Below, piece by piece: positions 8,302 to 53,856 of a DNA stretch of 64,000 bases. The notes beneath the pieces were generated by a model that was not told where the DNA came from, made no database searches, and was given only the letters and a program-made list of their open reading frames with translations. Position numbers and translations under genes: made by a program. Origin of the DNA: Terriglobia bacterium (GTDB lineage: Bacteria > Acidobacteriota > Terriglobia > JAJPHL01). How positions within the stretch are numbered: position 1 is the stretch's first letter; the number at the start of each line of letters is the position of its first letter. The DNA lies in assembly GCA_021325275.1 (NCBI GenBank), contig JAJPHL010000055.1, forward strand, positions 1 through 64,000, read 5' to 3'.

Positions 8302-8355
8302 GCCTGTCAGAATACTTAACGATGTTAAGCATGTCAAGCGATAATTTGGATGGAT

Positions 8356-10497
8356 TTACGAATGCGTTGCAGCGTCCATGAAATACCGTTGACTGTTCAA
8401 CGCCTTCTTCCCCGACTTTGGACGCCGCGCGTACCTTCCGTCGACCTGCATGACACGCGCCTTGGCCGTGTCTTCGAGGTAAACGCGCACGATGTCGTCC
8501 ATCACGTGGCGGACCAGCGCGGGATCCTCCAGCGGAAACAGGATTTCCACGCGGCGGTCAAGATTACGAGGCATCAGATCGGCGCTGCCCAGGTACACTT
8601 CCGGCTTGCCGCCGTTGGCGAAATAATAAATTCGGCTGTGCTCGAGGAAACGCCCCACGATGCTGAACACCTCGACGTTCTCGCTGACGCCGGGCACACC
8701 CGGCCGCAAACAACAGATGCCGCGCACCAGCAGCGTGATCTTCACGCCCGCCTGCGACGCTTCGTAGAGCAGGCGAATGATCCGCGCGTCTTCGAGCGCG
8801 TTCATTTTGAAAATCAAGCGTGCGGCACCCCCATTACCTGCGCCCTTGCGCGCATGTTCGATCTCGCGGCGCACCAGCGCTTCGAATCGCTCGCGCAGAT
8901 TCACCGGCGACACCATCAGCTTGCGATAATCGTGTTTGGCGCTGTAGCCGGTGAGGTAGTTGAACAAATCGGTGGAGTCCTCGCCGAATTCCGGACGACA
9001 CGTCAGCAAGCCGAGATCGGTGTAGATCTGCGCAGTCACCGCGTTGTAATTGCCCGTCGCGGCATGGACGTAGCGGCGTAGCGCGTCGCCATCGTTGCGG
9101 ACCACTTGCAACAGTTTGCAATGCGTCTTCAACCCCACCAATCCGTACGCCACGTGGACGCCTTCGCGCTCCAGAGCTCGCGCCCACTCAATGTTCGACT
9201 CTTCGTCGAAGCGCGCCTTCAACTCGACCAGCACCGCCACTTGCTTGCCGTGATCGATGGCGTCGAGCAGCGCTTCCACCACCGGCGAGTTCCGGCCCAC
9301 GCGGTACAGCACCATCTTGATCGCCTGCACCTTGGGATCGCGGGCGGCGCGGCGCAAAAAGTCGACCACCACCTGGAACGATTCGTAGGGATGATGCAGC
9401 AAAACGTCTTTGCGCTGCAAAACGGAAAAAATATCTTCCTCTTCCTCGGCCTGTTCCTCCGAACTGCGCAGCAGGGACTTGGGAACCGCAGGCACAAACA
9501 CCGGATCCTTCAAATCCGGACGATTCAGCTTGTAAAGCTGGATCAAGCGCGCCAGTGAGAGCAGTCCCGGGCTGCGATACACCTGGCTCGAATCGATTTC
9601 AAGATTTGCCGTCAGGATTTGTAACAGCAACTCCGGCATTCCCGCATCCACTTCCAGGCGAACCACCGATCCAAAGCGGCGCGCGCGCACGCCTTCCTCG
9701 ATGGTTTCGAGCAAATCTTCCGCTTCCAGCTCTTTGATCGCCAGATCGGCGTCGCGGGTGATGTGAAACGGATGAACCTCGCGGACTTCCATGCCGAGAA
9801 AAAGCGCTGAGATGTTGGCGGCAATCACTTGCTCGATCCAAACGAAGACTTCGCGATGTCCGTTGTTGGCGCCGACCGGCACCAACTGCGGCAGCGTGTC
9901 GGGCACTTTCACGCGCGCGAAGCTTTCTTCGCCTTTGCCGTCTCCCGGAGGTTCGATCAAAACGGCGAGATTCAAACTGAGGTTCGAAATGTGCGGAAAG
10001 GGCCGGCCGGGATCGAAGGCTAACGGCGTCAGCACGGGGAAAATTGTGCTGGTGAAATACGCCGCCGCCGTTTCGCGCTGTCGTGCGTTCAACTCGGAAT
10101 AGTCGAGGATCGCGACGCCGTGTTTCTCGAGTGCCGGCAGCAAGCGCTTCGACAGGCACTGGTGAGCCTCGCGCAGCAGCGCTTCCACTTCGGCGCGCGC
10201 CGCCGCGAGGATCGCCGGAGGACGCATGCCGTCGGCCCCGGGCTTATCGACGCCGGCATCGAGTTGCGCGATCACGCCGGCGATGCGGACCATGAAAAAC
10301 TCGTCGAGGTTCGAGGCAAGGATCGAGAGGAATTTCACGCGCTCGAGCAAGGGATTCTGGGGATCGAGCGCTTCTTCCAGCACGCGCCGCTGAAACGCCA
10401 GCAGGCTCATTTCGCGATTCACATAGAGTTGCGGATCGGTGAGCTTGGGCCCGGGCGTCTCTTTCGGGTGTTTTCGGGGGGAAGACTTCTTAGCCAT
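8356..10497 (-). CDS. ppk1: Polyphosphate kinase 1
   Basis: 713 residues, the normal length of PPK1, which reversibly transfers the terminal phosphate of ATP to polyphosphate. The N domain opens LYVNREMSLLAFQRRVLEEA; the head domain carries FLSILASNLDEFFMVRIAGV. The catalytic half has LYRVGRNSPVVEALLDA, the phospho-histidine segment GLKTHCKLLQV (His459) and RRYVHAATGNYN (His478). ATG 10497 (MAKKSSPRKH) is preferred over upstream codons that do not fit the family. It is a stand-alone gene; the regulator on its left runs the same way. The 209 bases upstream (10498-10706) contain no gene. Confidence 0.95.
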   Translation of the reverse strand: MAKKSSPRKHPKETPGPKLTDPQLYVNREMSLLAFQRRVLEEALDPQNPLLERVKFLSILASNLDEFFMVRIAGVIAQLDAGVDKPGADGMRPPAILAAARAEVEALLREAHQCLSKRLLPALEKHGVAILDYSELNARQRETAAAYFTSTIFPVLTPLAFDPGRPFPHISNLSLNLAVLIEPPGDGKGEESFARVKVPDTLPQLVPVGANNGHREVFVWIEQVIAANISALFLGMEVREVHPFHITRDADLAIKELEAEDLLETIEEGVRARRFGSVVRLEVDAGMPELLLQILTANLEIDSSQVYRSPGLLSLARLIQLYKLNRPDLKDPVFVPAVPKSLLRSSEEQAEEEEDIFSVLQRKDVLLHHPYESFQVVVDFLRRAARDPKVQAIKMVLYRVGRNSPVVEALLDAIDHGKQVAVLVELKARFDEESNIEWARALEREGVHVAYGLVGLKTHCKLLQVVRNDGDALRRYVHAATGNYNAVTAQIYTDLGLLTCRPEFGEDSTDLFNYLTGYSAKHDYRKLMVSPVNLRERFEALVRREIEHARKGAGNGGAARLIFKMNALEDARIIRLLYEASQAGVKITLLVRGICCLRPGVPGVSENVEVFSIVGRFLEHSRIYYFANGGKPEVYLGSADLMPRNLDRRVEILFPLEDPALVRHVMDDIVRVYLEDTAKARVMQVDGRYARRPKSGKKALNSQRYFMDAATHS

Positions 10498-10706
10498 CCT
10501 GCTAAGCCTATAGCGAATCGCCGGCAAGGCTCAACGGCGCGGAGTCGCTTTCATGAAACCTTGACACGCCAGTTACCGGACGGTCCGGCCGCCGCGGAGT
10601 GTCTCGGGCTTACCAGCCAGGGCTGAGAAGCGAGCGAAGAAGCCGTGGTCAGTTCATCGAGAAACACGACCTCTGGATCGTTAATCAGCGCCGAAACCCG
10701 CAGCAC

Positions 10707-13700
10707 CTAAGGGGACTTCGCCGCCACTGGAGATCGATAGGTCGTATTGGGGCCTGGCGGATACCGGGTTATTGTGGCTGCTCCGGTTTCCAACAGGTAG
10801 TAATAACCCAGCGCGTCAAGTTGGGCGGCGAACGGCCCGGACAGTCCCGCGATGACAGTCGTGAGGTTCCCCGCCGAATCGATTCCGCGAATGAGTCCGC
10901 TCACCGATTCCGCAAACATCACGTTTCCGCTCGAATCGACCGTAATGCCTCTGGCTAAACCGATGGGTGATCCGGCGGCCGGGGCACCGTCGGCTGTTCG
11001 GCCAGTGGTTCCGTTGCCGGCGATGGTCGTCAGCGTCCCGTTGGGGGCGATTCTTTCCAGACAGCTTGCGGTATCGTCGCCGAAATAAACGGACCCGTCA
11101 GGCGCCACGGCCACGGCGATGGGTGAACCGAGATCCGCTTGGAGCGCGGGAACACCGCTGCCTCGGTTACAGGTGGACGACCGTTTTCCAGTTCCCGCAA
11201 TGGTAGTGAGCGTGTTCGACGATAAGTCGAACTTCAACACGCGTGCGCTGCCGTTCGCCGCGATGTAGAGGGCGTTGCGTTTTTCATCCAGCGCGATACC
11301 CCAAGGACCGCCGGCAGCGCCGCCGGCAACCAGAACCACACTCTTGCCATCGGCAATCGAAACGCGCACAATCTGCCCGCCATCGTTGACATAGAGCGTC
11401 AATCCCGCCGAATCCACGGCCAGGCCGGTGACGCTTGTGCTGTTTGTGACATACACCGTGGAGCTCGCTCCAAGCGGCGTGATCCGGTTTACCTTTTTGG
11501 CCGCTTGATCCGCCCAATAGACGTTGCCCGAGCCGTCCGCCGCCATGGCGCGCGCCCCGTCGACGGCCTGCCCGCCGACCGGCTGCGCGGCGAAACTGAG
11601 GACCGCACTCCCCTGCGATAGTGTGTTGCCCGCCAAGACATCCGCGTCGACGAAGCCTGCCGCGGGCGGCTGTGCGATATTCACGGTTACGCTGTCCAAT
11701 CCATATTGGTTGACGTCGGAAATACTCTGGACTGGATATACAGTCCACCCGATTCGCACACTCAACTGCGCGGGATCGGCTTTGCGGAATCCAGTGCCGA
11801 CGAGCGTAAGCGTCGCGGGTCCGCTGCTCGCGGTCCAGGAAGGTAGAGTCGCGGGCGTACAGCCGCCGACGATGCCGCATAGGCCCAGCGACACCGGAGT
11901 GGATGCGCCCGTCAGCGCGATGGTGCCCTGCGCCGTCATAAGCTGCGGAGCGGCTGCTTGCAGGTCGAGCGGCCAACTGAGCGGCGGCCCTCCGTTGGTC
12001 AACGCCAGCACAGCGGGGCCGAGCGGCAGAGTTGGGGGCAGATAAAACTGTATCGACTCTTGGGAAACGCTCACCATCGGAATCGACACTCGGCGAACGA
12101 CGTCGACGCTCTCGCTCCGCAATCTTCGGGCGGGCGGAAAATCGATCCACGCGGTCACGCCTCCCAGCGGGATCGCCGGTACGGACGACGTTGCCTGACT
12201 CAACCCTAGCCCCTGGCCTTGAAGCGTGATCAGCGAGCCCGGCGCGGCCACCGTTGGTCCCGACTGAATCACGGACGCGCCGGTGTAGGGCGGCGCAGAG
12301 GCACGCTGATCCGCAACCACCGGCACGTATCCCACTTCGAGTCCCGCGGGCGGCGTGACCACAAGCGCCGGATCCAATGATGCCAGCGACCCGGAAGAGG
12401 GAGGGCTCATATATGTCAGGTCCGGCGTCCAATGGCTGTGCATGGATGCCACAAAAGTCTGAATGCGTTGTTGGTCGGCGGTGCTCAAATTCATCCGCTG
12501 GATGGCCGGCTGATCGACAAAGCGATACCAGAAATAGGTGACCGTGCTGCCATCGGCCAAATTCGCATAAAAAGGACCCGCGGCCGGACCGGGATTGACC
12601 CAGCAACTGGAATTCGCCGTCGGAACGGTTAGCGGGCTGCCGGTCTTGGCAAGCGGAAACGTTTGCGATTGCAAGGAAAGGCTCGCGGGTACGTCGCTCG
12701 CCAATATCGGCGTCAGCGCTTTCGATCCGGGAGTTTGTTTGTAATACTCCGGCAGCGCTCCGGCAGGGAAGGTTGCGGTCGGCGTCCACTGGAGTGTCAC
12801 CGCACAGCCGTTTACGCTAGCTGCGCTGTTGGTTGCCTTCACGATGGAATCCAGCGCCAAAGGAGCAGTCTCATTGTCGCCCTGGACCTGCAGTGCGATG
12901 CCGGCGCCTGGATCCTTCGTGCATTGCGGGGTTGTCGACCCGGCACTCTGAAACTGCGCGGGAACCGGCGAGCCTCCATTAACCCAAGTCTTGAGCGCTG
13001 CGTACAGCGCCTGATCGGAATAATAATGAATGTCCTGTTGCAGGACCGTTTGACTGTGCGAGTCCACGGGAAAATGCATCGCGGGATACCGCGAGTAGAC
13101 CGTTTGGTCGGGGCCGACGGCGCGGAAGCGGGGGAAAAATCCGTATTCCGCGGCAATGCCGCTGAGGAGTGCATCGAGGGTATCGAGCCCGCGCCCGACA
13201 TCGGTGGGATAGGTGCGTGAAAGATCGCTCCAATAATCCGGCAGCCAGATCACCGCGGGTCCCTTAAAGTTGGCGCTATTCAGAAAGAGTGTCCAGGTCT
13301 GATCGCCGGTCGGCGTTCCGTTATTCGATCGCGCTCCAAACAACGGCAGCGCCATGTAGCCGTAACCCAGCAAATTTCCGTTGGTGGTAACCAGAACCGG
13401 GGAATCGATCGGCATCAGCAACCGGTTGGAAAGCTGAGCGATGCCCATCTGGCCGCACGGGATCGATCCGCCGGAAACGGCAAAACCAAAGCCTTCGCCG
13501 CTCTGGCCGCCCGAGTAACAAGTACCCGTTCCCACGACATGGATCTTCGGATTTCCCGTCGGAAACGATGAGCCCCCCCAGATGCCAACGCCGCCTTCGA
13601 TGGTTTCAAAGTAAGCGGAGAGGTTTCCGGTGCCGGTGTAGAACTGGTCGCGCGCGGTTGTACCCGGCGGACAAAGAATCTGCGGGAACGTATAGTTGTC

Positions 13701-38067: not shown

Positions 38068-40521
38068 TCAATTCTCCGACGGTTTTTCAACACGCTCGAT
38101 TACGTACGTCTCCACGGGACCCTTGCGCGACTCCAGTTTCAGCCCGAGCGTTCGTTGCAACGTTGTGAAAAGGTCCGGCGACGAAGGATCGGGCGCGGCC
38201 TCGCGTCCCGATGCTACTCCCATCGACACCGGCGCCATCGGATCACTCCAGCCGGGGATCGTGATGTCGAAGTTTCCTTTGATTCCGGTGGCGTCCACCA
38301 CCGCGCGATCGGTCCACGTGGTCAATTCTTCGGCAAGGTCTTGCATGTTGAGCATGTTGCCGGTCAAGCCATTCGCGCGGCCGCCGTGGAGTCCGTGACA
38401 CGCGCGGCTCTCGGAACAGTCGCGCTCGGCGGCCGGCGTGAGTTTCGCATCGCCTTTCGCTGCGACCAGCGCGTAGATGGGCATTTCCTTCGTCTCGTGA
38501 CGCATCCTGAGTTGGAAGCGATCGGCTAAAATGTCGCGCAACATTCGGCGCATGCGCTCTCCGCGCGGCAAATCGTCCGGCAAGGAGCCTTTCGCGTCGA
38601 TATAGTAGCGCTGCTTGTCGAGCCACTCCGGTCCGCCGCTGACGAATCCCTTCAGCATCGGAACTTGATACGCGATTTCGATCAGAAATCGCAACGTGAC
38701 GTTCTCCGCGTGTAGCCGGCCGCCCTTGAGCACCTCGACGCCCAATCGGAACGGGGGCGTTTCGTGACTCTCTTTGATCGATGCGACATCGAACGACGGC
38801 TGCTGTGGGTCGCTGTCATCGCCCGACGGCTTTTCGGCGCGCTCGACGATCAGCATCTCCACAGGACCCTTGCGCGATTCCAGCTTCAATCCGAGTTGTT
38901 CGCGCATCGCCGCAAAAACGTTTGGTCCTTCAAGGCTCCCTGGCGGCACGTCGGGGCGTTCAGCCCCGCGGCCTTGAAAATCGTCGGGCGTCCAATCTAG
39001 TTTGATGTTGTAGTTTCCTTTCAGGCCTGTGTTGTCGGTGACCACGCGACCCATCACGAACGCCAGCATATCGGCGAGTTGTTTGATTCCCACACGCTCG
39101 CCGTACAGATGACTGCGATTCTGCATGTTGAATCCGCCGCAGGGATGATCGCGTAACTGCTCACCGCAATCTTCGTCGCCGGCCATGGGCATTTTCGGCC
39201 CGCCCTTGTCCACCGTGATCGCGTACAGCGACATTTCCCGCGTCTCGCGGCGAATCGCCAGTCCGAAGCGATCTGCCAGCAACGTTTGCAACATTTCGTA
39301 GACTTCGCTGCGTCGCGCGGTGGAGGGTCCTTTGGCCAGAATGTCGAATCTCTCGGAGTCGAGCCAAGTCGGTCCGCCAGTGAGTTGGTATTCCTGAATT
39401 TGATACGCTTCGATGATCAACATGCGCAGCGGAACGTTGGTGGCTCTGAAGGTTCCGTGCATCGGCGGTGGAAATCCCATGCCACGGTCACCCGATTTGT
39501 TGACCTTCACCGTTGCCACTTCGAAACGCAAGCCCGATCCCGGCACGTGCGCTTGCGCGCGGAGACGCGGCCCATCGATCATGCCGATCGCGATGGGCAC
39601 GGCGATCGCCGCGACGCCGGCCACCGCGAGCAGAAGTTTGCGGCCGACGCTCAAGTTGCGCGCTACGCCGCGGCTCATGATGCGCTCGATGCGTTGTTTC
39701 AAGTCGGCATCCGCGACACCCGCAACGAAGGCGGTTTCGGATCGCAAGTACAATCGGCAAACGTTCAAGATGCTTTCCGCATAGACTTCCGGCTGCGTTC
39801 CCTGCCGAATCACCTCTTCGTCGCACGCGCGTTCGCGCTCCTCGACCATTCGCGCGCCGAGCCACCAGACCAGCGGATGAAACCAGAACGCCGCCTCCAC
39901 AAACATGTGGATCGCCGAGGCCAAATTGTCGCGGCGGCGTACGTGGCATAGTTCATGCGCGACGACGGCCTGAAGTTGCGTCGCCGTCAAGCGATGGGAG
40001 ATTCCCGGCGGCAGCACCAGCACGGGCCGCCAAACGCCGAAGACTCCCGGCTCAAGAAAGTCGTTCGATGACCGCACGGGAATCTCTATTCGAAGATCGA
40101 CTGGACGCGCGGCTTTCAGAGCCACGCGGATACGCCGCCACTGCATCGTCCAACGCCCCGCGGCCAACAGCGCTCCGCACAGCCAAACGCCGAGGAGGAC
40201 TTCGCCAACCGGCAACGGTTCGCTCACGGGCGATTCAACAACGCGTTCGACCTCAGGCGGCGAGAACGGCCGGCTCACTTCGTTGATTGCAACGGCAACG
40301 GCTTCGCGCGCGGCCGGTGCTTCGGGGCGCCATTCGATCTGGCGTCCCGCCGCCACCAGCAGCGAAAACGGGACCAAAAACTTCAGCGATGCCGCGAACC
40401 ACAAGCGATAGCGAACGCGCGCATGATTTTTGCGCGTCAGCAGCACCAGCAACGCGGCGAATGCCGCGAAGATCGTAGATTGCCAAAGATGATAGGCGAG
40501 CATCGTCAGCGCCGGGGTCAT
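38068..40521 (-). CDS. M56 (BlaR1-like) membrane protease fused to two TIGR03435 domains
   Basis: 817 residues. The N-terminal 320 residues are a peptidase M56 sensor-protease with several membrane helices and the zinc motif HELCH (His189, Glu190, His193), then WFHPLVWWLGARMVEERERACD. Two copies of the TIGR03435 domain follow in the exterior part (about 335-565 and 585-815), each with a SFDVASIK/FEVATVK-like opening and an ADRFxLxxRxETKEM-like centre. BlaR1 proteins normally carry a penicillin-binding sensor here, so the TIGR03435 pair probably replaces it as ligand sensor. The gene overlaps the BlaI-type repressor by 4 bases, the classic sensor-repressor pair. Confidence 0.85.
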   Translation of the reverse strand: MTPALTMLAYHLWQSTIFAAFAALLVLLTRKNHARVRYRLWFAASLKFLVPFSLLVAAGRQIEWRPEAPAAREAVAVAINEVSRPFSPPEVERVVESPVSEPLPVGEVLLGVWLCGALLAAGRWTMQWRRIRVALKAARPVDLRIEIPVRSSNDFLEPGVFGVWRPVLVLPPGISHRLTATQLQAVVAHELCHVRRRDNLASAIHMFVEAAFWFHPLVWWLGARMVEERERACDEEVIRQGTQPEVYAESILNVCRLYLRSETAFVAGVADADLKQRIERIMSRGVARNLSVGRKLLLAVAGVAAIAVPIAIGMIDGPRLRAQAHVPGSGLRFEVATVKVNKSGDRGMGFPPPMHGTFRATNVPLRMLIIEAYQIQEYQLTGGPTWLDSERFDILAKGPSTARRSEVYEMLQTLLADRFGLAIRRETREMSLYAITVDKGGPKMPMAGDEDCGEQLRDHPCGGFNMQNRSHLYGERVGIKQLADMLAFVMGRVVTDNTGLKGNYNIKLDWTPDDFQGRGAERPDVPPGSLEGPNVFAAMREQLGLKLESRKGPVEMLIVERAEKPSGDDSDPQQPSFDVASIKESHETPPFRLGVEVLKGGRLHAENVTLRFLIEIAYQVPMLKGFVSGGPEWLDKQRYYIDAKGSLPDDLPRGERMRRMLRDILADRFQLRMRHETKEMPIYALVAAKGDAKLTPAAERDCSESRACHGLHGGRANGLTGNMLNMQDLAEELTTWTDRAVVDATGIKGNFDITIPGWSDPMAPVSMGVASGREAAPDPSSPDLFTTLQRTLGLKLESRKGPVETYVIERVEKPSEN

Positions 40522-42588: not shown

Positions 42589-43341
42589 TTAATTCGCGGA
42601 AGGCTTCGACGCGCTCACGATCACCAGCATCGGGATCGGCCCTTTGCGCGCTTCGAGTTTCAGTCCCAGTTGCTCTTGGATCGCGGTGAACAGCGACGGT
42701 CCGTCGCTCGACGGACCCGGTTCGTTGGACGACGGAACGCCCGGCCCTAAGGCCTTCGGCTGAAAACGCTCCGGCGTCCACTGCATTTGAACATTGTAGT
42801 TGGCGGTAAGTCCCGTGCGATCGGTGACGGGGTGATCGAGCACGCTTGAGAGAATCTCGGCAAGGTCTTTCGCCGTGCCATGCCCGTTGATGCGGCCGCC
42901 GCCCCAACGGAATCCATTTTTCTCCTGCGATTCCGGCATCTTCGAACCGCCCTTCGCGACAACCAATTCGTAAACGGCGCCTTCCTTCGATTCCTCACGG
43001 ACTTCAAGTTTGAAGCGATCGGCAAGCAGCTTGCGCAACATCAAGCGGTATTGTTCGCGCGTGGCATCCTGCTCCGACTTCGCGGCGATGTCGAAAGTAT
43101 CGTCGTCGAGCCACTTCGGACCGCCGCTGAGTTGGTACTCCTGAAGGTGATATGCCACGAGGATCAGCGTACTGAGCGGGACATTTTGCGCGGTGACCTC
43201 GCGTCCCGGCGGCGGCAGGTTGATGCTTCGGCCGCGCTGCCCCGGTTGCGACGGTTTGACCGATGCAACCTCGAAGGATGGTGTGGTCTGCGCGGCGGCT
43301 GCGACGGCGGAGAACAGCACGACGAGGAACAGTCTTCTCAT
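42589..43341 (-). CDS. Secreted TIGR03435-domain protein
   Basis: 250 residues: a signal peptide (RLFLVVLFSAVAAAAQ) and a single TIGR03435 domain (FEVASVKPSQPGQRG, YHLQEYQLSGGPKWLDDDTF, LADRFKLEVREESKEG, LGLKLEARKGPIPMLVI). The family is abundant in Solibacter-type genomes and has no assigned function. It is the same domain that occurs twice in the M56 protease at 38-40 kb, so the free protein could share that ligand. It runs the same way as the sigma gene, 57 bases away. Confidence 0.88.
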   Translation of the reverse strand: MRRLFLVVLFSAVAAAAQTTPSFEVASVKPSQPGQRGRSINLPPPGREVTAQNVPLSTLILVAYHLQEYQLSGGPKWLDDDTFDIAAKSEQDATREQYRLMLRKLLADRFKLEVREESKEGAVYELVVAKGGSKMPESQEKNGFRWGGGRINGHGTAKDLAEILSSVLDHPVTDRTGLTANYNVQMQWTPERFQPKALGPGVPSSNEPGPSSDGPSLFTAIQEQLGLKLEARKGPIPMLVIVSASKPSAN

Positions 43342-44582: not shown

Positions 44583-45026
44583 ATGTCCGTTTCAACGTCT
44601 GAATCAGGGCCCGCGCGAAAACCATTCATCTGGCACAGCCGCGTTCGTTTCGTCGACACCGATGCCTCGCGGCGCATTCACTACACCGCGATGTTTCGCC
44701 ACTTCGAAGCGGCAGAGCACGAGTTCCTGCGTCACATCAACTGCGGGTACGGACAAATCACTACGCGCGACGTGGCCTTTCCGCGGGTCCACGTGGAAGT
44801 GGATTTTCAGTCGGCGACAAACTACGACGATTTGCTCGAGATCGAAGTGTGGATCGCGCGAATCGGCGGCAGTTCGTTTACGTTGGCATTTCGCGCCAGC
44901 GTGGAGGGCCGGCAGGCTGCCAGCGGAAAGATCGTTGTGGCGGCGATGAGTCCGGCTACGAAAAAATCCGTGCCGCTCCCGCCGGGTCTCGCGGATTCGA
45001 TCCGTCCGTACCTGCGCGAAGGCTAA
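44583..45026 (+). CDS. Acyl-CoA thioesterase (YbgC/4HBT hotdog family)
   Basis: 147 residues. VRFVDTDASRRIHYTAMFRH is the hotdog signature with the catalytic Asp, followed by FEAAEHEFLRHIN and a beta-sheet half (VEVDFQSATNYDDLLEIEVW, SFTLAFRASVEG). It hydrolyses acyl-CoA esters in the cytoplasm, and the divergent thiolase suggests linked acyl-CoA metabolism. A TATACT box at 44565-44570 lies 12 bases before the ATG, leaving almost no leader. Its last 4 bases overlap the stop of the convergent barrel gene. Confidence 0.88.
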   Translation: MSVSTSESGPARKPFIWHSRVRFVDTDASRRIHYTAMFRHFEAAEHEFLRHINCGYGQITTRDVAFPRVHVEVDFQSATNYDDLLEIEVWIARIGGSSFTLAFRASVEGRQAASGKIVVAAMSPATKKSVPLPPGLADSIRPYLREG

Positions 45027-45709
45027 AAAATCTTGCTGATCTCGAGCGTAATCGTTTGCTTCCCGACCTTGGCGTTGTTCGGCACGCTATACCCAGCGTA
45101 AATCCCAAACTTCTTCGGCAGGTTCAGATTTACACCGGACGTTGAATATCCCATCGAGTGCGTTCCCGAATACCAGTCGGTGATCAAGCTGACGGTGTTA
45201 TTCAGCGGATGCTCGATGCCGGCGATCGCGTGAACGGTGTTGCGTCCAAACAATTGCGCGCTGCCGCCGGAGATTCCCGCGGTCAAGCGCGTCTTGATTT
45301 TCGGCAACCGGCCGCTGAAGTGGCTGTACAACCATTCGCCCGCGCCCTTGCCTTGCAGTGAAGCGAGTGCTTGACCACCGAGCGTCCACTTGAATTCTTG
45401 GTCCTTGAATGATTTCGCGGCGAGGGGAATGATCGAGCGAAAGCCCAGTGCGCCCGAGATATTACCCGACGCCGGGTCCGACGTGTTGTACAAGTTCACG
45501 TCGATCTCGGTGTGGTGACCGATGCCCGCCGCGAAATAATCGGTGGCTGCCCAGTAGCGGCCGGGCTGCCAGCTTCGGAATTGCGATTCGTGCTCCACGT
45601 AATACGTGTGTGGATCGGTGATGTCGGCGGACGGCACGTTGAAAATGGTTTGCTGCGCGTGCGCGGACAGGCCCGCCGCCAAGGAAGCCAAAAGGAAAAT
45701 GGTTCGCAT
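45023..45709 (-). CDS. Small predicted outer-membrane beta-barrel, fourth gene of the TfuA-YcaO operon
   Basis: 228 residues: a signal peptide (MRTIFLLASLAAGLSAHA) and a chain of alternating polar/aromatic beta-strands (WAATDYFAAGIGHHTEIDVN, GALGFRSIIPLAA, TVSLITDWYSGTHSMGYSTS), ending EISKIF with a terminal Phe as in many barrel proteins. No named family is recognised. ATG 45709 follows the TfuA stop with only 2 bases between, so it belongs to the peptide operon. It could be a porin, a receptor or an export channel for the product. Codons upstream of 45709 lie in another frame of tfuA and are not coding. Confidence 0.7.
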   Translation of the reverse strand: MRTIFLLASLAAGLSAHAQQTIFNVPSADITDPHTYYVEHESQFRSWQPGRYWAATDYFAAGIGHHTEIDVNLYNTSDPASGNISGALGFRSIIPLAAKSFKDQEFKWTLGGQALASLQGKGAGEWLYSHFSGRLPKIKTRLTAGISGGSAQLFGRNTVHAIAGIEHPLNNTVSLITDWYSGTHSMGYSTSGVNLNLPKKFGIYAGYSVPNNAKVGKQTITLEISKIF

Positions 45710-45711
45710 CT

Positions 45712-46434
45712 CTATTTCGACCGCGCTTGCTCCCACATCACCGGCCGCTCTAAGAAGTATGTCACGCGCTTCGGCTCCAGCCCGGCCGAAAGGTCGCGCT
45801 GCATCGTTTGAAGCATCGCAATGGCGTCCTCGCGTTTGCGACTCACCGCGCCTCGCGGGAGCCAATCGCGAAACGCCGCGAGTTCGCGGGCGTTCGCACC
45901 GCGCCCGGCGGCGATTTCCAATACCCCCGAATAATTCCGAGCGGGATAAAACAACGTCTTGGCGATTTCCCGCAATTCCTCGGAGGTTCGCGATGAAATC
46001 ACGCGATCCGCGGCCGCGCGATCCAGCGTCGCACGAATATTCACCATCGCTTCCGACGCCGCACGATACGCAAACTCCTCGGAAGCGTGCTCCACCGCGA
46101 CTTCGTCATCGTCCTCCAGCAAGCCGTCGCGATAGGCCTCGAAAATCGCGCCGACGCCCTGCATGCCGAACACACGCAATTCGGCCGCGCGCAGCGCACC
46201 CATGCTGGCGCTGCCGTAGACGTGAATGCCCTCGCTCATCGCCCACAGGATTTCCTTGTGCCACACCGACGGCACCCGCTCGAAGTATCCATCGATGATT
46301 CCGATGGCCTGCGGCCGCTGCTCGGCCGCGCGATAAACGTCGCCTTCGGCGGCGGGCGGAAGATATGCCGCGTCAAGATACGCAGCCGCATCGGTGGCGG
46401 AGATCGTGGGGCCTGTGAAAATGATCGCGTTCAT
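45712..46434 (-). CDS. tfuA: TfuA-like protein, partner of YcaO
   Basis: 240 residues. IGIIDGYFERVPSVWHKEIL and VYGSASMGALRAAEL (residues 72-86) are the hallmarks of the TfuA core domain. TfuA proteins accompany YcaO enzymes that exchange a backbone carbonyl oxygen for sulphur: in archaeal methyl-coenzyme M reductase thioglycine formation, and in thioamide-containing peptides. Trifolitoxin biosynthesis gave the family its name. The ATG overlaps the YcaO stop (ATGA, 46431-46434) with AAGGGG as ribosome site inside ycaO. Together they form the modifying pair of this operon. Confidence 0.9.
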   Translation of the reverse strand: MNAIIFTGPTISATDAAAYLDAAYLPPAAEGDVYRAAEQRPQAIGIIDGYFERVPSVWHKEILWAMSEGIHVYGSASMGALRAAELRVFGMQGVGAIFEAYRDGLLEDDDEVAVEHASEEFAYRAASEAMVNIRATLDRAAADRVISSRTSEELREIAKTLFYPARNYSGVLEIAAGRGANARELAAFRDWLPRGAVSRKREDAIAMLQTMQRDLSAGLEPKRVTYFLERPVMWEQARSK

Positions 46435-47645
46435 GCAGACCCCTTGCTCGCGAGAACCGCACGCGCGCGCGCGCCGGGCATGAATTGCGGCGTGACGGCG
46501 GTCTCGAGACCCGGCGCGATGACCCGCGCGACGGGGATTCCGAATTCACGCCGCGTCAAATCGACAACGATGACTTGTTCAACTCCCGCGCCGCGCACGC
46601 GCTCGATCGACCACGCAAGGTCCTCATCGATCGATGCGCCATCGAAATTCGGGGCATTGCGGAAATCGCGCGTGGCATCCGCCGCGAGCCGCGCACGCAG
46701 TTTGGCCAACCCGTCGCGATCCGTGATGCCGCGATAGTTCTCGCGCTTGGCGTCGTCGCGTGCCCCGGCGATCATCGTCAGCCGGCTTTGCGCGCATTCG
46801 GTGAGCGCGCGCGACAGGGCCACGGCCCGCGCCGGATGGCAGCCGTGACCGGTCGCGTGCGCTTCGTGGCGCAACACGCCCTCGCGTTCCGGCAGGATCA
46901 AGCAAGTGAACGCCGCGATCCCCACATCGCTGGTGATTTCCCAAACGCCCACGGCGATTCCCGCGCGCGCAAATTTGTCGAGCAGCTCGCGGCAACCTGG
47001 TTCATCCACGGTATCCGGATTGACGCGCGTTTCATCAAGCGCCCCGCGCAGCATCCACATTGTCATCGCGTCGCGCTCGACAAGTTCGCACAGTCCATGC
47101 GCGATCGCTTCCGGGAGATTATTCCCCGACGCCAGACCATTCGATCCGCAGGGGAAACAACCGGCTCCGGGCAGCGGTTGCGTCGCGTCCATGTGCACCA
47201 GTTCGAATGGCACGAACACACTTTGATCCGCCGCGAGCAAATCGCGCCCTTCACACCACAAAATCCGCTGCATGGGATGGAAGCGCGATCCTTTTACCGA
47301 CGGCAATTGCGCCGGATCAGCCACGCGGGTGGAGTATCGCAAATCCAAATAGGATGCCAGGCGTAGCGGAAACGTCGCGCCTTCCGCGTGAAAAAGCTCG
47401 ACCGATTCCATCAACCCGGACGCGCGCGCGGCATCGAGCGTCGCGCCCTTGCCTTGTGAAACGGAAATCGACCGCGAGTTGGGCCGGCACACCATGGTCA
47501 CGGGAATGCCGATGGAATCGAGACCGGTGACGTTGGCGATGCGCGTGATGCCCATCACCGGCGCGAGACCTTTCACCCACGCGACAGTTTCATCGGGCGT
47601 GCGCGAACGATGCGTGCCGTTACGATAGAGCTTTTGTGCGGGCAA
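46431..47645 (-). CDS. ycaO: YcaO-domain peptide-modifying enzyme
   Basis: 404 residues covering the whole YcaO fold, which uses ATP to activate a peptide amide for attack by a thiol, hydroxyl or sulphide. ATP/Mg ligands are visible in SGLMESVELFHAE (Glu80, Glu83), LPEAIAHGLCELVERDA (Glu179, Glu187, Glu190, Arg191) and LTECAQSR (Glu283, Arg288). The C-terminus (ARAVLASKGSA) lacks the PxPxP tail of azoline-forming YcaOs, which fits the TfuA-dependent thioamide class. There is no fused leader-binding domain. The start is TTG 47645, 15 bases after the precursor stop, without a clear ribosome site, so coupling to the precursor is likely. Confidence 0.92.
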   Translation of the reverse strand: MPAQKLYRNGTHRSRTPDETVAWVKGLAPVMGITRIANVTGLDSIGIPVTMVCRPNSRSISVSQGKGATLDAARASGLMESVELFHAEGATFPLRLASYLDLRYSTRVADPAQLPSVKGSRFHPMQRILWCEGRDLLAADQSVFVPFELVHMDATQPLPGAGCFPCGSNGLASGNNLPEAIAHGLCELVERDAMTMWMLRGALDETRVNPDTVDEPGCRELLDKFARAGIAVGVWEITSDVGIAAFTCLILPEREGVLRHEAHATGHGCHPARAVALSRALTECAQSRLTMIAGARDDAKRENYRGITDRDGLAKLRARLAADATRDFRNAPNFDGASIDEDLAWSIERVRGAGVEQVIVVDLTRREFGIPVARVIAPGLETAVTPQFMPGARARAVLASKGSA

Positions 47646-47660
47646 GCGGCTGGCCGGAAG

Positions 47661-47948
47661 TTAGCACATGAACCAGTGCGCCAGAACGCACGTGCAGATG
47701 TCCCAGAAGACGGTCGGCATCAGTTCGGTGATTTGCACCGAAATGTTGTGCGGTAGCGGAACCGCCGGAGCCGGGACGGGCGTCGGTGCGATCAATTGCG
47801 CGAGTTTGGTCTTCGCGTCGGGGGCCATCTTGTATTGCTGCAAGACCTCGTTGGGGATGCCGTAGAGGTTGCCGTCGGGACCGACCACAAGAATTGCCGT
47901 AGTGGGATTGTCGGTTTGCAGCGGCCCGTGGTTATGAGTCTGACTCAT
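47661..47948 (-). CDS. Candidate RiPP precursor peptide
   Basis: 95 residues, first gene of the operon. The ATG at 47948 has a strong ribosome site (GGGAGG, 4-5 bases away). Residues 1-15 are polar. Residues 17-52 form a leader-like block (TAILVVGPDGNLYGIPNEVL, then QQYKMAPDAKTKLAQLI). Residues 54-67 are a Pro/Ala linker. Residues 68-95 are a hydrophobic, cysteine-containing tail with Cys85, Cys87 and a terminal Cys95 (FWDICTCVLAHWFMC). This leader-linker-core layout beside YcaO/TfuA supports a modified peptide. No GG cleavage motif, protease or ABC exporter is seen. A small structural protein modified in place is the alternative. Confidence 0.8.
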   Translation of the reverse strand: MSQTHNHGPLQTDNPTTAILVVGPDGNLYGIPNEVLQQYKMAPDAKTKLAQLIAPTPVPAPAVPLPHNISVQITELMPTVFWDICTCVLAHWFMC

Positions 47949-48019
47949 AAGCCTCCCTTAAAGTCGGAACACAGCGAGATTTCAGCACACGACGCGAATT
48001 CCATCGCGGCTGTGACGAC

Positions 48020-48049
48020 ATCATTGTCTAGGGAAAGCGACAGTGTCAA
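48020..48049 (-). promoter_or_regulatory. Sigma-70-like promoter of the TfuA-YcaO operon
   Basis: On the minus strand a perfect -35 box TTGACA (48049-48044) is followed after 18 bases by AATGAT (48025-48020), a 4/6 match to the -10 consensus. Transcription would start near 48013, giving a leader of about 65 bases before the precursor ATG. It lies between the kinase stop and the precursor, so the operon need not depend on kinase transcription. Confidence 0.6.
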
Positions 48050-48067
48050 GCCCATTCCTGGCAAATG

Positions 48068-50875
48068 TTACGGACCAATACTCTTCAACCGGGCCCGCGC
48101 GTCTTGGTACATCGGCAGTCCGGCGTCCGCGCCCGATCCCAGATCGAGAAACGCCTTCAGTTGCTCGCGCGCGTGCACCGGGTCGCCAACTTTCTGATAC
48201 GCCACGCCGGCGCGATAGTGCAGTGTGGCGAGGCGATAGTACGCGGGATCCTCGGGCAGCCACGCGCGCTCGTTGCCACGCGCCAGTACTTGCGCGTAGG
48301 CGCGCGCGGCATCTTTGTCGCGGCCCACACTCGTATAGATGTCGCCGAGAACTTCCAGCGCCCACGTGGAATTCTGGTCGCGCAGCGCTTGTTCGGCTGC
48401 CGTGGCGGCTTCCGTCTGCTTGCCGTCGGCCAAGTCGATCTCCGCCTGCACCATCGAGCGAAACGATTGTAGTTTGGCGTCGGAATTCTTTTCCGCCAAC
48501 GCGCTGAGCGCGTCGAGAATCTTGCCCGCTTCTATTTGGTGGCCAGACGTGGCGTACCATTTTCCCAACAGGAACAACATCGCCGGGTCGTGACCGGTGA
48601 CATTGCCCGCAGTGAGCGCCTTCGCAGCCGGCGGGTCTATTTCCGCAAGCAGGATTTTGTTCTTGAATGCCAAATAATCGTTGCCGATTTTTTCCGCCGC
48701 CGCGATGCCGGTGCGCAATTCCGCGCGACCTTCTTCATAGCGCCCTTGCGCCAAGTCCAAGTCGGCGCGTGCGGCGCGTCCGAACGCTTCTTTCTCGCCG
48801 CCCGCGTGAATCATCTCGTCCATGAGAGTGCGCGCTTCCTGAAATTTCCCAAGCGACACCAGAACGTCGGAATAATAGCCGAGCACGTTGCTGCCCGCCG
48901 TCGAATCGGGCACGATCTTGCGCAACTCCGTGATCATCGAGTACGCCGCGTTGGAATCGCCGCTGTAAAGCGCGAAGCGCACCAGGTTAATTCGAATGGG
49001 GACGAAACTGGGCGCCATGGCGGCGGCCTTGCGCATCGCTTCCTGGCCGAGCGCGACGTCGCCGCGATCCAAATACGACGTCGACAGATTCAGCAGCGGC
49101 GCGGGATCCAGTGGTGTGAGTTCGGAAAGCGCTTGATAGTAGCCGATGGCCGCGTCGGTGTCGCCCGCGAACAAACTGTAGTCGCCGAGAATCTTCAGGC
49201 GCTCTTTTCCGGTAACCTTCGAGAGCATCTGCGTGGCTTGATACAAATTTTGCTTGCCGCGTTCGCGATCGCGAATGCTGTACGACAATCCCACGTACGC
49301 TTGCGCCATGGCGAACTTGGGATCGAGTTGCAGCGCTTTCTGGAACTGCGCGCGCGCGTCGTCAAAACGTCCGGCGGCGAGATAGTCCTTGCCGATGGTG
49401 AAATCGCTGATCGCTTCCAGCGACCCGGTGGTCACTTGCGCCAGCGGCGCCGATGTTTCCTTCATTTCCGCCGGCAATTCGCCGAGTTTCTGGCGCAGTT
49501 CGCGGACCATCGTATCGAGCGCGGGCGGCACTTCATCCGGTTGCTGCACTTGCGTTTGATTGCTCATCAGCGTCTTGCCGTTCGCGCCCACCGCGCGCAC
49601 CGCGAGCAAATAGCTCGACCCCAGGCGGCCGATCGCGCCCAGCACCAGCGCTTGCAATCCCTCGCGCTTGCAAATCTCCAGTCCCAACGTTTCGCCGATC
49701 GGCGATCGCGGCGGTTTTTCCGCGCGCCGCAGCGCTTCGGCCACGCGCATCGGCGGATACACCATCACCACGTGCGATTGCCCCAACGAGGCGCTGACGA
49801 GCTCGCGCAAACTCTGGTCGAAGAGCGCGTCGCCGGTGGAATTTTCGAAATCGCCTACCAGCACCACGGTGCTTTTCGCGCTTTGCCGCGCGTGCCACCA
49901 GCGATAGCCGAACCAGCCGCCGGCCGCGAGCATCACGAGCACCGCGGCAATGCTCATCACCCACGGCAGCGGTCCGCGAACCGCGTCGATAGAAGCCTGC
50001 GTGATGATCGTCGACACGCTCGAACGCGGACGCTCCGGCGGCGCGATCGCTTGCAGCGCGCTTTCCAACTCGCGCGCCGATTGATAGCGGTCCTTGGGAT
50101 CTTTCTCGAGACAGCGCCCCAGAATCGGCTGAAATTCCGCGGGCAATTCCACGGTCGGCGGATCGCTGCGCACGATCAACGCCATGGTTTCCACTTTCGT
50201 CTCGGCGTTGAAAGCGCGCCGGCCCGAAAGCATTTCGTAGAGCACCACGCCGAAACTGAAAACGTCGGACCGCGCGTCGGCAGCTTGTCCTTTTACCTGC
50301 TCGGGAGCCATGTAGCCGACCGTTCCCAGCACCGATCCTTCTTCGGTGCCGCCCGTGGTGAATCCGCTGACCGCTTGAAGGCGCGTGTCGAGCTTGGCGA
50401 GACCGAAGTCGAGAATCTTTACCGAACCTTGATCGGTAATGAAAATGTTTTCCGGCTTCAGGTCGCGGTGAGTGATTCCTTTGTCGTGCGCCGCGGCTAA
50501 ACCGCGTGCCACTTGCCGGGCCCAGTCGGCGGCGGTCGGCGCGGCAATCGTGCTCCCCCGATCGCACATGTCGAGCGCCTCGCGCAGCGTGCCGCCTTCC
50601 AGCAACTCCGTGACGATATATGGCAGTCCTTCGTGGAAGCCGATGTCGTAAATAGAAACAATGTTCGCATGATTCAGCATCCCGACCATGCGGGCTTCGC
50701 GTTCGAAGCGCTTGATGCGTTCGGGATCGCTGGGCGACGCGCCGGAGAGAAACTTGATGGCCACTTCGCGGCCCAATCGCGAGTCGCGAGCGCGGTAGAC
50801 CTCGCCCATGCCGCCTTTTCCCAGCAGGGCCAAGATTTCGTAAGGTCCGATGCGAGTCTGCGGCGAGAGCTCCAC
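48068..50875 (-). CDS. Membrane Ser/Thr protein kinase with a C-terminal TPR-like sensor
   Basis: 935 residues. The kinase domain (14-280) is complete: LLGKGGMGEVYRAR, Lys41 in VAIKFL, HRDLKPEN (136-143) and DFG (156-158), with GTVGYMAPEQ in the activation segment. A transmembrane helix at about 304-326 places the remaining 600 residues outside the cytoplasm. That part contains repeated 34-residue TPR-like helices (FDDARAQFQKALQLDPKFAM and others). Such kinases are numerous in Acidobacteria and phosphorylate unknown targets. It lies upstream of, and parallel to, the peptide operon, with a separate promoter between them; a regulatory link is only possible. Confidence 0.9.
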   Translation of the reverse strand: MELSPQTRIGPYEILALLGKGGMGEVYRARDSRLGREVAIKFLSGASPSDPERIKRFEREARMVGMLNHANIVSIYDIGFHEGLPYIVTELLEGGTLREALDMCDRGSTIAAPTAADWARQVARGLAAAHDKGITHRDLKPENIFITDQGSVKILDFGLAKLDTRLQAVSGFTTGGTEEGSVLGTVGYMAPEQVKGQAADARSDVFSFGVVLYEMLSGRRAFNAETKVETMALIVRSDPPTVELPAEFQPILGRCLEKDPKDRYQSARELESALQAIAPPERPRSSVSTIITQASIDAVRGPLPWVMSIAAVLVMLAAGGWFGYRWWHARQSAKSTVVLVGDFENSTGDALFDQSLRELVSASLGQSHVVMVYPPMRVAEALRRAEKPPRSPIGETLGLEICKREGLQALVLGAIGRLGSSYLLAVRAVGANGKTLMSNQTQVQQPDEVPPALDTMVRELRQKLGELPAEMKETSAPLAQVTTGSLEAISDFTIGKDYLAAGRFDDARAQFQKALQLDPKFAMAQAYVGLSYSIRDRERGKQNLYQATQMLSKVTGKERLKILGDYSLFAGDTDAAIGYYQALSELTPLDPAPLLNLSTSYLDRGDVALGQEAMRKAAAMAPSFVPIRINLVRFALYSGDSNAAYSMITELRKIVPDSTAGSNVLGYYSDVLVSLGKFQEARTLMDEMIHAGGEKEAFGRAARADLDLAQGRYEEGRAELRTGIAAAEKIGNDYLAFKNKILLAEIDPPAAKALTAGNVTGHDPAMLFLLGKWYATSGHQIEAGKILDALSALAEKNSDAKLQSFRSMVQAEIDLADGKQTEAATAAEQALRDQNSTWALEVLGDIYTSVGRDKDAARAYAQVLARGNERAWLPEDPAYYRLATLHYRAGVAYQKVGDPVHAREQLKAFLDLGSGADAGLPMYQDARARLKSIGP

Positions 50876-50891
50876 TTCGAGAAATTATACA

Positions 50892-50958
50892 GTCAGAACC
50901 GTCCGCGGTAGCAGACGGGTAAGCCTGGTGGCCCCTCCGCTGCCGCGATGGTTCTGAC
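50892..50958. promoter_or_regulatory. Large imperfect palindrome between divergent kinase and peptidase genes
   Basis: Arms GTCAGAACCGTCCGCGGTAG (from 50892) and the reverse complement of GTCAGAACCATCGCGGCAGC (50939-50958) match except for two substitutions and one extra base, around a 26-base loop. It occupies the centre of the 152-base gap between two divergent starts, so it may be a shared operator or a bidirectional structure. Confidence 0.45.
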
Positions 50959-51027
50959 GGCAGCGGCGTGCACCCGCACAAAAAAGGCGACCATGCATCC
51001 GGCACCGGGGACTAGAATAGGTACCTT

Positions 51028-53856
51028 ATGCGATCGCTTACACTCGTTTTCGCTCTCGTTGGCCTTCTTTTCGCATGCGCGCTGAGCGCGCAGCCCGCGT
51101 ATCAATCGTCGCAACCAATGGACGAGGAATTCGCCAAGCTCGTGAAGGAGTGGACCACCAAGCCGGAATTCATTTCGCCGCTGGTGGATCACTTGCCGAA
51201 ATCGTCGACGGTGCCGTCGCCGAAAGACGTGATCGGCCACTATGTCGGCGAGCCGAAGAAGCTCGACTACTACGAGGATCTCTTGAAGTATTACCGCGCG
51301 CTGGCTGCGAAGTCGTCGCGCGTGAAGATTCTCGACATCGGGCAAAGCGACGAGCATCGTCCGCAGATCGTGGTGTTCGTCTCATCGGACGACAACATCA
51401 AGAATCTGGAAACCTATCGCGGATATCTGGCGCAACTCGCCGATCCGCGCAAACTCAGCGAGACCGAAGCGAGGGAAATAATTGGAAAGGCCAAGCCGAT
51501 TTATCACCTGATGTCGGGGTTGCACTCGGGCGAAACGGGACCTTCGGAAATGCTGATGGAACTGGCCTATCGCTTGGTCACCGAGGATTCGCCGCTCATC
51601 CAGAGCATTCGCGATCGCGTGATTGTGTCGATCACGCCGGCGGCCGATCCCGACGGCCGCGATCGCTACGTCGATTGGTATTACCGCTATAAGATCGACG
51701 AAAAAACCGAACAGGACAGCATGGGCGGTCCGCCGTACTGGGGAAAATACATTTTTCACGACGACAACCGCGACATCAACTACTCGCAGATTCCCATGCA
51801 GAATCTGCTGAAGTGGTATTTGCAATGGCATCCGCCGATCATGCACGACCTGCATGAGTCGGTGCCGTTCATGTACGTTTTCAGCGGACAAGCGCCACAG
51901 AACACCGCGCTCGATCCGATCCTGTACGGCGAACTGCCGTGGTTCGCAAATTTCGACATGGCGCAAATGATCAAGTACGGCATGCCGGGCGTGTGGACCC
52001 ACGCGTTCGTCGACATGTGGTCGCCGGGATATTTGGGTTTCATGTCCTCGAATCACAACGGCATGATGCGCATGTACGAAACGTTCGGCAACGGCGGGGC
52101 GAACACGATGCATCGACGCGTTGACGGCGGACCCGAGGGCGGCCGCGGCGGCGCGGGCGGCGGCGATGCCGGCGGCGGCGCTGGTCGCGGCGGGCAGACG
52201 ACACGCGAATGGTACCGGCCCGTCCCGCCGTATCGCGAAGTCGATTGGTCGATGCGCAACAACACCAACTACATGCAGACGGGCGTGCTGAGCGGACTGG
52301 AGCTCACATCGCAATTTCCGGAAGTGGTGCTCGACAATTTTTATCGCAAGTCGCGCAATTCGATTGAGGCGGGGAAAACGGAAACGCCGCACGGCTACGT
52401 TTTCCCGATTGGCCAAGACCAGCAGGATTTGACGCGCGTGGCGTGGGTCGTGAACATTCTGCGTTTCCAGGGAATCGAAGTGGGCCGCGCGAAGAATGAA
52501 GTGAAACTGAAGGAAGGTACATATCCGGCGGGATCGCTCATCATCAAACGCGATCAGCCGTACGGGCGCTTGGCGCGAATCCTGCTCGAGAAACAGAATT
52601 ATCCCGACCCGCAATTGCGCACCTACGACGATTCCGCGTGGACCATGGGCTTGATGGCGCACGTGAAAGTTGTCGAGGTCGCCGATCCCGAAGTGCTGAA
52701 CGTGCCCGTGGACGCGGTGGAAAAATACGAACCGCGCGGCACAGTGGAAAGCGGATCGGCGGGTGCGGCGGTGCTCGACAACGGGTCTCCTTCCATGATT
52801 ACCCTGCGCTACCGCATGAAGGACACGCCGATGAAGATCGCCGAGGCGGCGTTTGAATCGGGCGGGAAGAAAATTCCCGCGGGATCGTTCATCGTCCGCG
52901 CGTCCGCGGCCGCGAAACTGAAATCGGTCGCCGAGCCGCTGGGGCTTTCTGCGGTATCGTTAGCCTCCGCGCCGGACGTAAAGATGCACGACGCCGATTT
53001 GCCGAAACTCGCCGTGTTCAGTTCGTGGGGAAATACGCAAGAGGTCGGATGGGTGCGTCACGCGTTCGATCAATTCGAAGTGCCGTTCGATTTGATCTTC
53101 AAGGAGCAGATCAAGCAAGGCAATCTGCGCGCGAAGTACGACGTGATCGTAATTCCACATCAGCGCGGCGGCAAGGGTTTGGTGTTCGACATCGAGCCGC
53201 GCAAAGATGCGCAAGGAAATCCGAAGCCGCTCGCCTACACCAAGACCGACAAATTCAAATTCCTCGGCGATTACGGATCGTCGGAAGACATCACCGGCGG
53301 AATGGGCTTGGAAGGCGTGATGGAATTCCAGAAATTCGTGGCGCAAGGCGGATTGCTCGTCACGCTCGGGCAAGCCAGCACGTTCCCAGCGGACTTCGGA
53401 ATCACGCATCGTGTAACGGCGTCGACGACGTCGGCGCAATTCTACGCGCCGGGTCCGGTGATCCAAGCGGACATCGTGCGCGCCACGCACCCGGTGTTCT
53501 ACGGCTACACCGAGCACACCACGAACGTGCGTTGGGCCAGCGGTCCGCTGTTAAACGTGCCGCAGCAAGACGGCGGCCAAGTGTTGATGCGCTTCCCCGG
53601 CGGCGACGCCGCGGTGCTGAGCGGATTGATGCGCGGCGCCAACGAAATCCGCGGACGCGCCGCGATTCTCGACGTGCCGGAAGGCAAGGGCCACGTGCTG
53701 TTGTTCGCCACGAACCCGTGCTATCGCTGGCAGAACTACGGCGAGTTCCGCATGTTGTTCAACGCCGTGCTGAACTTCAACGATCTGCCGGCGACGCCGC
53801 CCGCCCCCGCGGGTCGCGGCGGCGCGGTGGAATCGGACGACGACGCGCACAACTGA
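51028..53856 (+). CDS. Secreted M14 family zinc carboxypeptidase-like protein
   Basis: 942 residues with a signal peptide (LTLVFALVGLLFACALSA). The peptidase domain holds the zinc ligands His and Glu in YHLMSGLHSGETGPSEML and a His in IMHDLHESVPF, plus TPAADPDGRDRY with the conserved substrate-contact region. A Gly/Arg-rich insertion (about residues 368-393) interrupts the middle, and the tail ends in an acidic PAGRGGAVESDDDAHN stretch. The C-terminal third resembles a glutamine amidotransferase-like/beta-sandwich region of unknown role. It probably trims peptides in the periplasm. It runs alone, divergent from the TPR kinase. Confidence 0.88.
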   Translation: MRSLTLVFALVGLLFACALSAQPAYQSSQPMDEEFAKLVKEWTTKPEFISPLVDHLPKSSTVPSPKDVIGHYVGEPKKLDYYEDLLKYYRALAAKSSRVKILDIGQSDEHRPQIVVFVSSDDNIKNLETYRGYLAQLADPRKLSETEAREIIGKAKPIYHLMSGLHSGETGPSEMLMELAYRLVTEDSPLIQSIRDRVIVSITPAADPDGRDRYVDWYYRYKIDEKTEQDSMGGPPYWGKYIFHDDNRDINYSQIPMQNLLKWYLQWHPPIMHDLHESVPFMYVFSGQAPQNTALDPILYGELPWFANFDMAQMIKYGMPGVWTHAFVDMWSPGYLGFMSSNHNGMMRMYETFGNGGANTMHRRVDGGPEGGRGGAGGGDAGGGAGRGGQTTREWYRPVPPYREVDWSMRNNTNYMQTGVLSGLELTSQFPEVVLDNFYRKSRNSIEAGKTETPHGYVFPIGQDQQDLTRVAWVVNILRFQGIEVGRAKNEVKLKEGTYPAGSLIIKRDQPYGRLARILLEKQNYPDPQLRTYDDSAWTMGLMAHVKVVEVADPEVLNVPVDAVEKYEPRGTVESGSAGAAVLDNGSPSMITLRYRMKDTPMKIAEAAFESGGKKIPAGSFIVRASAAAKLKSVAEPLGLSAVSLASAPDVKMHDADLPKLAVFSSWGNTQEVGWVRHAFDQFEVPFDLIFKEQIKQGNLRAKYDVIVIPHQRGGKGLVFDIEPRKDAQGNPKPLAYTKTDKFKFLGDYGSSEDITGGMGLEGVMEFQKFVAQGGLLVTLGQASTFPADFGITHRVTASTTSAQFYAPGPVIQADIVRATHPVFYGYTEHTTNVRWASGPLLNVPQQDGGQVLMRFPGGDAAVLSGLMRGANEIRGRAAILDVPEGKGHVLLFATNPCYRWQNYGEFRMLFNAVLNFNDLPATPPAPAGRGGAVESDDDAHN

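Follow-up and report, generated by a model that had tools for sequence, protein, structure and literature searches.

The locus described here raises the question of what a YcaO enzyme and a TfuA protein do with a small neighbouring polypeptide whose last residues include three Cys. It lies in the window, by which the whole analysed stretch of 64,000 nucleotides from a Terriglobia bacterium is meant. With a probability of about two in three, we consider the 95-aa product, P0001, to be the precursor of a small YcaO-TfuA RiPP system in which the C-terminal tail would undergo backbone thioamidation. The features concerned are the following.

45023..45709, minus strand: secreted or outer-membrane-like protein, 2 nt after the TfuA stop (from the sequence)
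45712..46434, minus strand: TfuA, 240 aa, its start overlapping the YcaO stop (ATGA); PF07812, 2.8e-48
46431..47645, minus strand: YcaO, 404 aa, with a TTG start 15 nt after the P0001 stop; PF02624, 7.6e-84
47661..47948, minus strand: precursor ORF P0001, 95 aa (translation; leader-profile match)
47664..47747, minus strand: putative core, residues 68-95, with Cys85, Cys87, His91, Trp92, Met94 and Cys95 (sequence, position after the leader, variability among relatives)
47751..47789, minus strand: Pro-rich linker, residues 54-66, APTPVPAPAVPLP (from the sequence)
47790..47897, minus strand: leader module, residues 18-53, a beta hairpin with a conserved DG turn followed by helices (profile and AlphaFold2)
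47952..47959, minus strand: ribosome-binding site AAGGGAGG, 3 nt 5' of the ATG (from the sequence)
48020..48049, minus strand: promoter-like site TTGACA-18-AATGAT, 10 of 12 consensus positions (consensus match only)
48068..50875, minus strand: Ser/Thr kinase-TPR protein, 935 aa, ending 120 nt upstream of P0001; Pkinase, 5.3e-53, plus TPR

The translation of P0001 closes with FWDICTCVLAHWFMC and runs to VQITELMPTVFWDICTCVLAHWFMC immediately before the stop. The six Cys, His, Trp and Met residues that the preliminary description had placed in the last 28 residues are all present, and residues 68-95 are indeed free of Gly, but the span it gave for this core, 47661-47746, falls one nucleotide short, since 28 codons and the stop occupy 47661-47747. 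Such an ending is rare by composition. Cys makes up 0.82% of the residues in the 38 non-overlapping window ORFs of at least 150 aa, a frequency at which three or more Cys are expected with P = 9e-5 within 11 residues and P = 1.6e-3 within 28. Among the 523 mechanical ORFs of at least 40 aa in the window, five have at least three Cys in their final 11 residues and 39 in their final 28, so the cluster alone is no proof of a gene. This count, together with the failure to find any homologue of the tail in 396 genomes of the phylum, in plasmids or in viral contigs, is what would favour a chance tail, with P0001 spurious or running past a decayed end. We hold that to be hardly credible, as the homology of the leader falls in the P0001 frame, the ribosome-binding site is good and YcaO starts only 15 nt beyond the stop. 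On the strength of this leader, of the AAGGGAGG site and of its place before YcaO-TfuA, P0001 is a real precursor gene of the TfuA-associated YcaO, as had been proposed. The sigma-70-like site, about 70 nt further upstream, is the single match of a simple scan across 44900-51100 (6.2 kb), with 1.3 matches expected in shuffled sequence.

In most of 89 loci a short ORF just 5' of YcaO carries the motif (V/I)-x-x-x-DG-x-(L/V)-Y-x-(V/I), which has no Pfam or NCBIfam match; 80 of these loci came from GTDB species genomes scanned with a YcaO alignment, and nine had been taken earlier from genomes and plasmids. A profile was built from ten leaders, hand-picked as seeds from motif matches, each of which had been obtained without using the window as query. 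It scores P0001 at 23.7 bits (E 2.1e-6), against 5.1 bits (E 1.7) for the next of the 1302 frames. It matches 46 of the 89 loci, 0-450 nt upstream of YcaO and on the same strand, a number that does not represent independent cases because many of them are Azospirillum. Elsewhere, only four matches of at least 12 bits occur among 19,312 frames, all in such loci, and these are plausible further precursors. A version from five leaders (three Azospirillaceae, L110 and L061), mostly alphaproteobacterial and too narrow, ranked P0001 second of the 1302 frames (E 1.9), and the ten-leader version adds delta-proteobacterial and other leaders. The AlphaFold2 model, calculated with 17 aligned precursors, predicts strands at residues 18-22 and 28-32 and helices at 33-38 and 43-53, with block means of 83-93 pLDDT over residues 21-50, while the rest of P0001 is of low confidence (mean pLDDT 69, pTM 0.33). 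By profile match and YcaO-TfuA adjacency P0001 is thus assigned to what is named here the DG-x-LY leader family, which offers a handle for finding YcaO-TfuA precursors in Myxococcota, Azospirillum, Chloroflexota, Acidobacteriota and others.

P0001 as a whole matches no Pfam or NCBIfam family, including the Nif11 leader PF07862, and has no convincing homologue in the 396 genomes of the phylum: a foreign match at 4.8e-5 (genome G077), the best obtained, was discarded because the frame concerned belongs to a longer protein of repeat type. The best plasmid match has an E of 9, and the viral contigs yielded no convincing homologue.

Both enzymes are related to thioamide-forming homologues. The best PDB match of YcaO is 6pe3, MJ1094 of M. 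jannaschii (5.7e-33), the azoline enzymes TruD (3.6e-21) and LynD (8.5e-19) being weaker, and with TIGR03266, the McrA thioamidation YcaO, it reaches 228.7 bits, under the cut-off of 365. TfuA is closest in the PDB to TfuA 6xp8 (5.8e-40) and remains narrowly under the cut-off of NF033432 (226.7 against 235.2 bits). Judged by these cut-offs, neither protein is the archaeal equivalog. The adjacent ycaO and tfuA, with a small precursor ORF alongside whose leader is common to other such loci, are what is expected of a YcaO-TfuA RiPP system. Ten neighbouring proteins (approximately 38.0-57.3 kb) were scanned, and among them no azole-type dehydrogenase, E1-like, decarboxylase, DUF692, HopA1-like, methyltransferase, metal-transport or transporter domain was found. 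The protein at 45023-45709 on the minus strand, with no Pfam or NCBIfam match and no relative at E 0.1 in the fetched related loci, is predicted to have a signal peptide and is possibly a beta-barrel; its gene is probably cotranscribed with TfuA. Further away, 38068-40521 and 42589-43341, both on the minus strand, encode two DUF3738 proteins, one of them fused to a BlaR1-type M56 peptidase. The window TfuA is the sole TfuA match of its genome. The same genome encodes a second YcaO (452 aa, 9257-10615) in locus L160 (genome G000, contig C51, 105000-122000), where 7914-11539 also covers an upstream protein of 306 aa and a partner of 448 aa.

The preliminary description had also regarded the C-terminal tail as the likely core, and the relatives bear this out, since it is the tail that varies: behind the common leader, the tails of same-leader loci are wholly different. 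In Azospirillum the tail reads D-x-E-A-x-R-x-x-I-T-P-G, with no Cys, in Niveispirillum GASAELHSA, and in L061 it consists of ASSWF repeats. Locus L078 holds, upstream of YcaO, a 317-aa ORF (5925-6878) with D-A-D-A-G-R-W-A-(I/V)-(S/T)-P repeats, which looks like the Azospirillum tail in multi-core form. At the YcaO-TfuA locus L121, a 311-aa ORF (8190-9125) has a DG-x-VY leader and then many GAMAAR/GAMAAQ repeats, a Gly-rich core. A Cys-bearing tail, type C, follows C-[YTFMV]-[VLI]-[VLI]-[ND]-L (CYVLNL-like) and marks 19 loci, for the most part from myxobacteria or delta-proteobacteria. One Cys is kept beside a fixed [N/D]-L in all of them, an invariance that follows from the choice of motif, as type C is assigned by the tail motif itself; a CxC occurs in two of the 19 (L045, L083) and a terminal Cys in none. 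One of these, L083, has a single ORF (5064-6185) with two leader-tail units, so that CxC occurs twice, in CSCVVLNL and CACYLLNL.

A direct identification of the window tail with the CYVLNL tail was tried and rejected, because no HMMER match to the type C profile was obtained and shuffling the tail gave scores just as high in 4471 of 5000 cases. By eye, ICT is common to the window and L062/L098, and CxC to the window and L045/L083, a likeness that we keep as a suggestion only. The YcaO tree comprised 99 rows with labels (A, N, C, o, Nif) set by hand, L147 and L153 (broken or missing YcaO) being left out. One supported branch of 20 rows is formed mostly by type C (18 rows), and the window YcaO has no resolved placement in this tree. 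Thirty of the 99 rows carry the label x, that is, no precursor was identified, including the acidobacterial L036, L094, L114, L122/L151 and L155/L156; a few such rows were given a precursor later, for example Nif11 in L103/L149 and L154. Precursors with a Nif11 leader stand beside YcaO relatives at four acidobacterial loci, L148 and L150 (PF07862, 7.7e-12 and 2.8e-11) and L103/L149 and L154 (by tblastn). All four have a single tail Cys followed by V or I (TCVPMV, TCVAMV, MCVVITAIR, NCIVWVAK). Taken with type C, these tails point to a single Cys being useful for part of the family, which in the window would most naturally be Cys87 (T-C-V).

Among the label-x loci, L036 has at 8569-10623 on its minus strand a radical SAM B12 enzyme (TIGR03975, 666.9 bits, cut-off 281.85) whose gene stops 36 nt short of the YcaO match. 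At L109 there is a weaker relative of it (96 bits, under the cut-off), and at L100 the corresponding position is taken by a long ORF. Products with both thioamide and C-methyl groups are possible.

These comparisons bear directly on what is done to the tail. The arrangement CxC...HW-M-C might bind copper or zinc, possibly with a thioamide sulfur as a further ligand, in the manner of methanobactin, and a stretch of 11 residues with three Cys plus a His and a Met is indeed unusual for the composition (P 9e-5, counting the Cys). Nevertheless, no relative keeps the full set of residues: tails with the same leader have no Cys or keep a single one, His and Met are not kept, and the low counts of CxC and of terminal Cys in type C tell against it. 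Among the scanned neighbours, moreover, neither a DUF692 (MbnB-type) nor a metal-transport domain was found. The metal site of the preliminary description is in this way left without support, its own check of whether the three Cys are invariant having gone largely against a fixed three-Cys site when run on the wider leader family, and we regard such a peptide as quite improbable. The second suggestion was azoline formation at ICTC, for which YcaO would cyclise Cys85 and/or Cys87 to thiazolines with TfuA in an accessory role. Cys and Thr, the classical azoline residues, are both in the tail, but same-leader relatives dispense with Cys altogether, YcaO is closest to MJ1094 rather than to TruD or LynD, and the scanned neighbours include no E1-like or ocin-ThiF partner. 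Moreover, the C-terminus, GARARAVLASKGSA, has no PxPxP motif. Azolines are thus disfavoured, and we consider them unlikely at this locus.

Thioamidation of the backbone is rated well above both azolines and a bare metal site, owing to the kinship of the enzymes, the scan of the neighbours and the precedent of VarA, VarY and VarT, a precursor, a YcaO and a TfuA that are reported to suffice for a thioamidated product (PMC6511847). The lack of Gly had been thought unusual, Gly being held to be the residue thioamidated in TfuA-dependent cases. That premise was wrong: the thiovarsolin thioamide is described between Pro and Arg (PMC6511847), and thiostreptamide S4 has thioamides at residues that include Val2 and Met3, TsaH and TsaI both being needed (PMC8153245). 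Since E. coli YcaO, likewise, is reported to target Met82 of uL16 (PMC13063428), a Gly-free core is ordinary, and the idea that YcaO-TfuA cores must contain Gly stands corrected. We infer that the folded leader module (residues 18-53) would dock the peptide, that YcaO would activate at least one backbone amide of the tail at the expense of ATP, and that TfuA would supply the sulfide for the thioamide or thioamides; the sulfur donor is reported to be thiocarboxylated ThiS, hydrolysed by TfuA (PMC8153245, PMC8939145). The modification would most likely fall in or near the ICTCV stretch: there, behind two unrelated leaders, relatives retain one Cys and then a hydrophobic or beta-branched residue. 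Against thioamidation stand the scores of both enzymes, which are under the cut-offs, the lack of fit between the window tail and any relative, and the Azospirillum-type tails, whose lack of Cys shows that such systems do not need it in general.

The kinase-TPR gene upstream of P0001 adds a further element. Its product is a probable regulatory partner and probably controls the system. The protein reaches 181.6 bits with TIGR04510 and 156.7 with TIGR03903, both far under cut-off (705.75 for TIGR03903), and AAA_16 is not among the families listed for it. With the window kinase domain and an Azospirillum cyclase-AAA-TPR protein as queries, same-strand kinase/cyclase matches were found ahead of YcaO at 46 of the 66 loci that extend at least 6 kb upstream, compared with seven of 80 downstream; the window is excluded from these counts, two duplicate loci were removed and Azospirillum is over-represented. 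Representatives combine Pkinase with AAA_16 (L048, L097) or TPR (L148), or Guanylate_cyc with AAA_16 (L050, with TPR; L121, with a SAM domain), and L106 passes TIGR03903, the TOMM kinase/cyclase model (795 bits). In the acidobacterial L103/L149, L148 and L154, kinase genes lie directly 5' of YcaO. Near the Nif11 precursor and kinase-TPR gene of L154, a 262-aa protein (12075-12863, minus strand) presumably resembles the tetrapyrrole-methylase-type enzymes of split borosin systems.

These associations open another reading, in which P0001 is not the precursor of a secreted natural product but acts as a small signalling protein, with a modified tail that the neighbouring kinase reads. In its favour, besides the upstream bias and the domain make-up of the representatives, several myxobacterial 'precursors' are 200-370 aa long and no exporter is found among the 10 scanned proteins. 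The genome has, however, 45 Pkinase matches, which by our estimate puts a chance kinase neighbour at the order of 1%, so that one adjacency says little alone; the promoter-like site separates the kinase and precursor genes, and hypervariable tails, repeated in some relatives, fit natural-product cores. We therefore think a signalling role unlikely. A bolder version, which we would offer only as speculation of low probability, is that of a widespread cassette made of a sensor (kinase or cyclase with AAA_16 and/or TPR), a DG-x-LY protein and YcaO-TfuA, in which the thioamidated tail would serve as sensor input, not as an antibiotic, the Cys tail of the window being tuned to redox or metal state. 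No description of a kinase/cyclase-TfuA association was found in the open-access literature; the main text of two TfuA surveys (PMC8120280, PMC6511847) contains neither 'kinase' nor 'cyclase'. Adenylate cyclases are described in the vicinity of ATP-grasp loci, at which YcaO and TfuA can also occur (PMC8939145), and the names of the NCBI models show that curators knew kinase/cyclase proteins beside TOMM clusters. A functional link would take peptide thioamidation out of natural-product chemistry and into signal transduction.

Returning to thioamidation, the nearest minimal precedent is the thiovarsolin system, varA-varY-varT, which likewise consists of precursor, YcaO and TfuA and has no dedicated protease (PMC6511847). 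It differs from the window in being actinobacterial, with an unrelated precursor, an APR/GPR repeat core and no mention of a kinase or cyclase (PMC6511847). The archaeal McrA system provides the best NCBIfam models for both window enzymes (TIGR03266, NF033432) and their best PDB matches, MJ1094 and 6xp8, but its substrate is McrA, while that of the window is a small peptide, and the window enzymes stay under the curated cut-offs. The thioamitides (thioviridamide, thiostreptamide S4) share YcaO and TfuA, and the thioviridamide core has a terminal Cys with a nearby His, a likeness to the window tail; unlike the window, they have a Cys decarboxylase, a HopA1-like/phosphotransferase pair and a His methyltransferase, none of which is found among the ten neighbours scanned, within approximately 38.0-57.3 kb, or among the five proteins searched separately with Pfam. 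Over the same interval there is neither the E1-like or ocin-ThiF partner that accompanies YcaO in azole/azoline TOMM systems nor the MbnB (DUF692) and MbnC that stand beside a methanobactin precursor. The window tail falls outside the profile of the myxobacterial CYVLNL-tail group, and the large kinase or cyclase beside peptide-modification genes, typical of the TOMM kinase/cyclase proteins (TIGR03903, TIGR04510), is seen at the window as well. The locus is, in this context, a variant YcaO-TfuA system, marked by a shared leader that lacks a database name and by a link to sensor genes.
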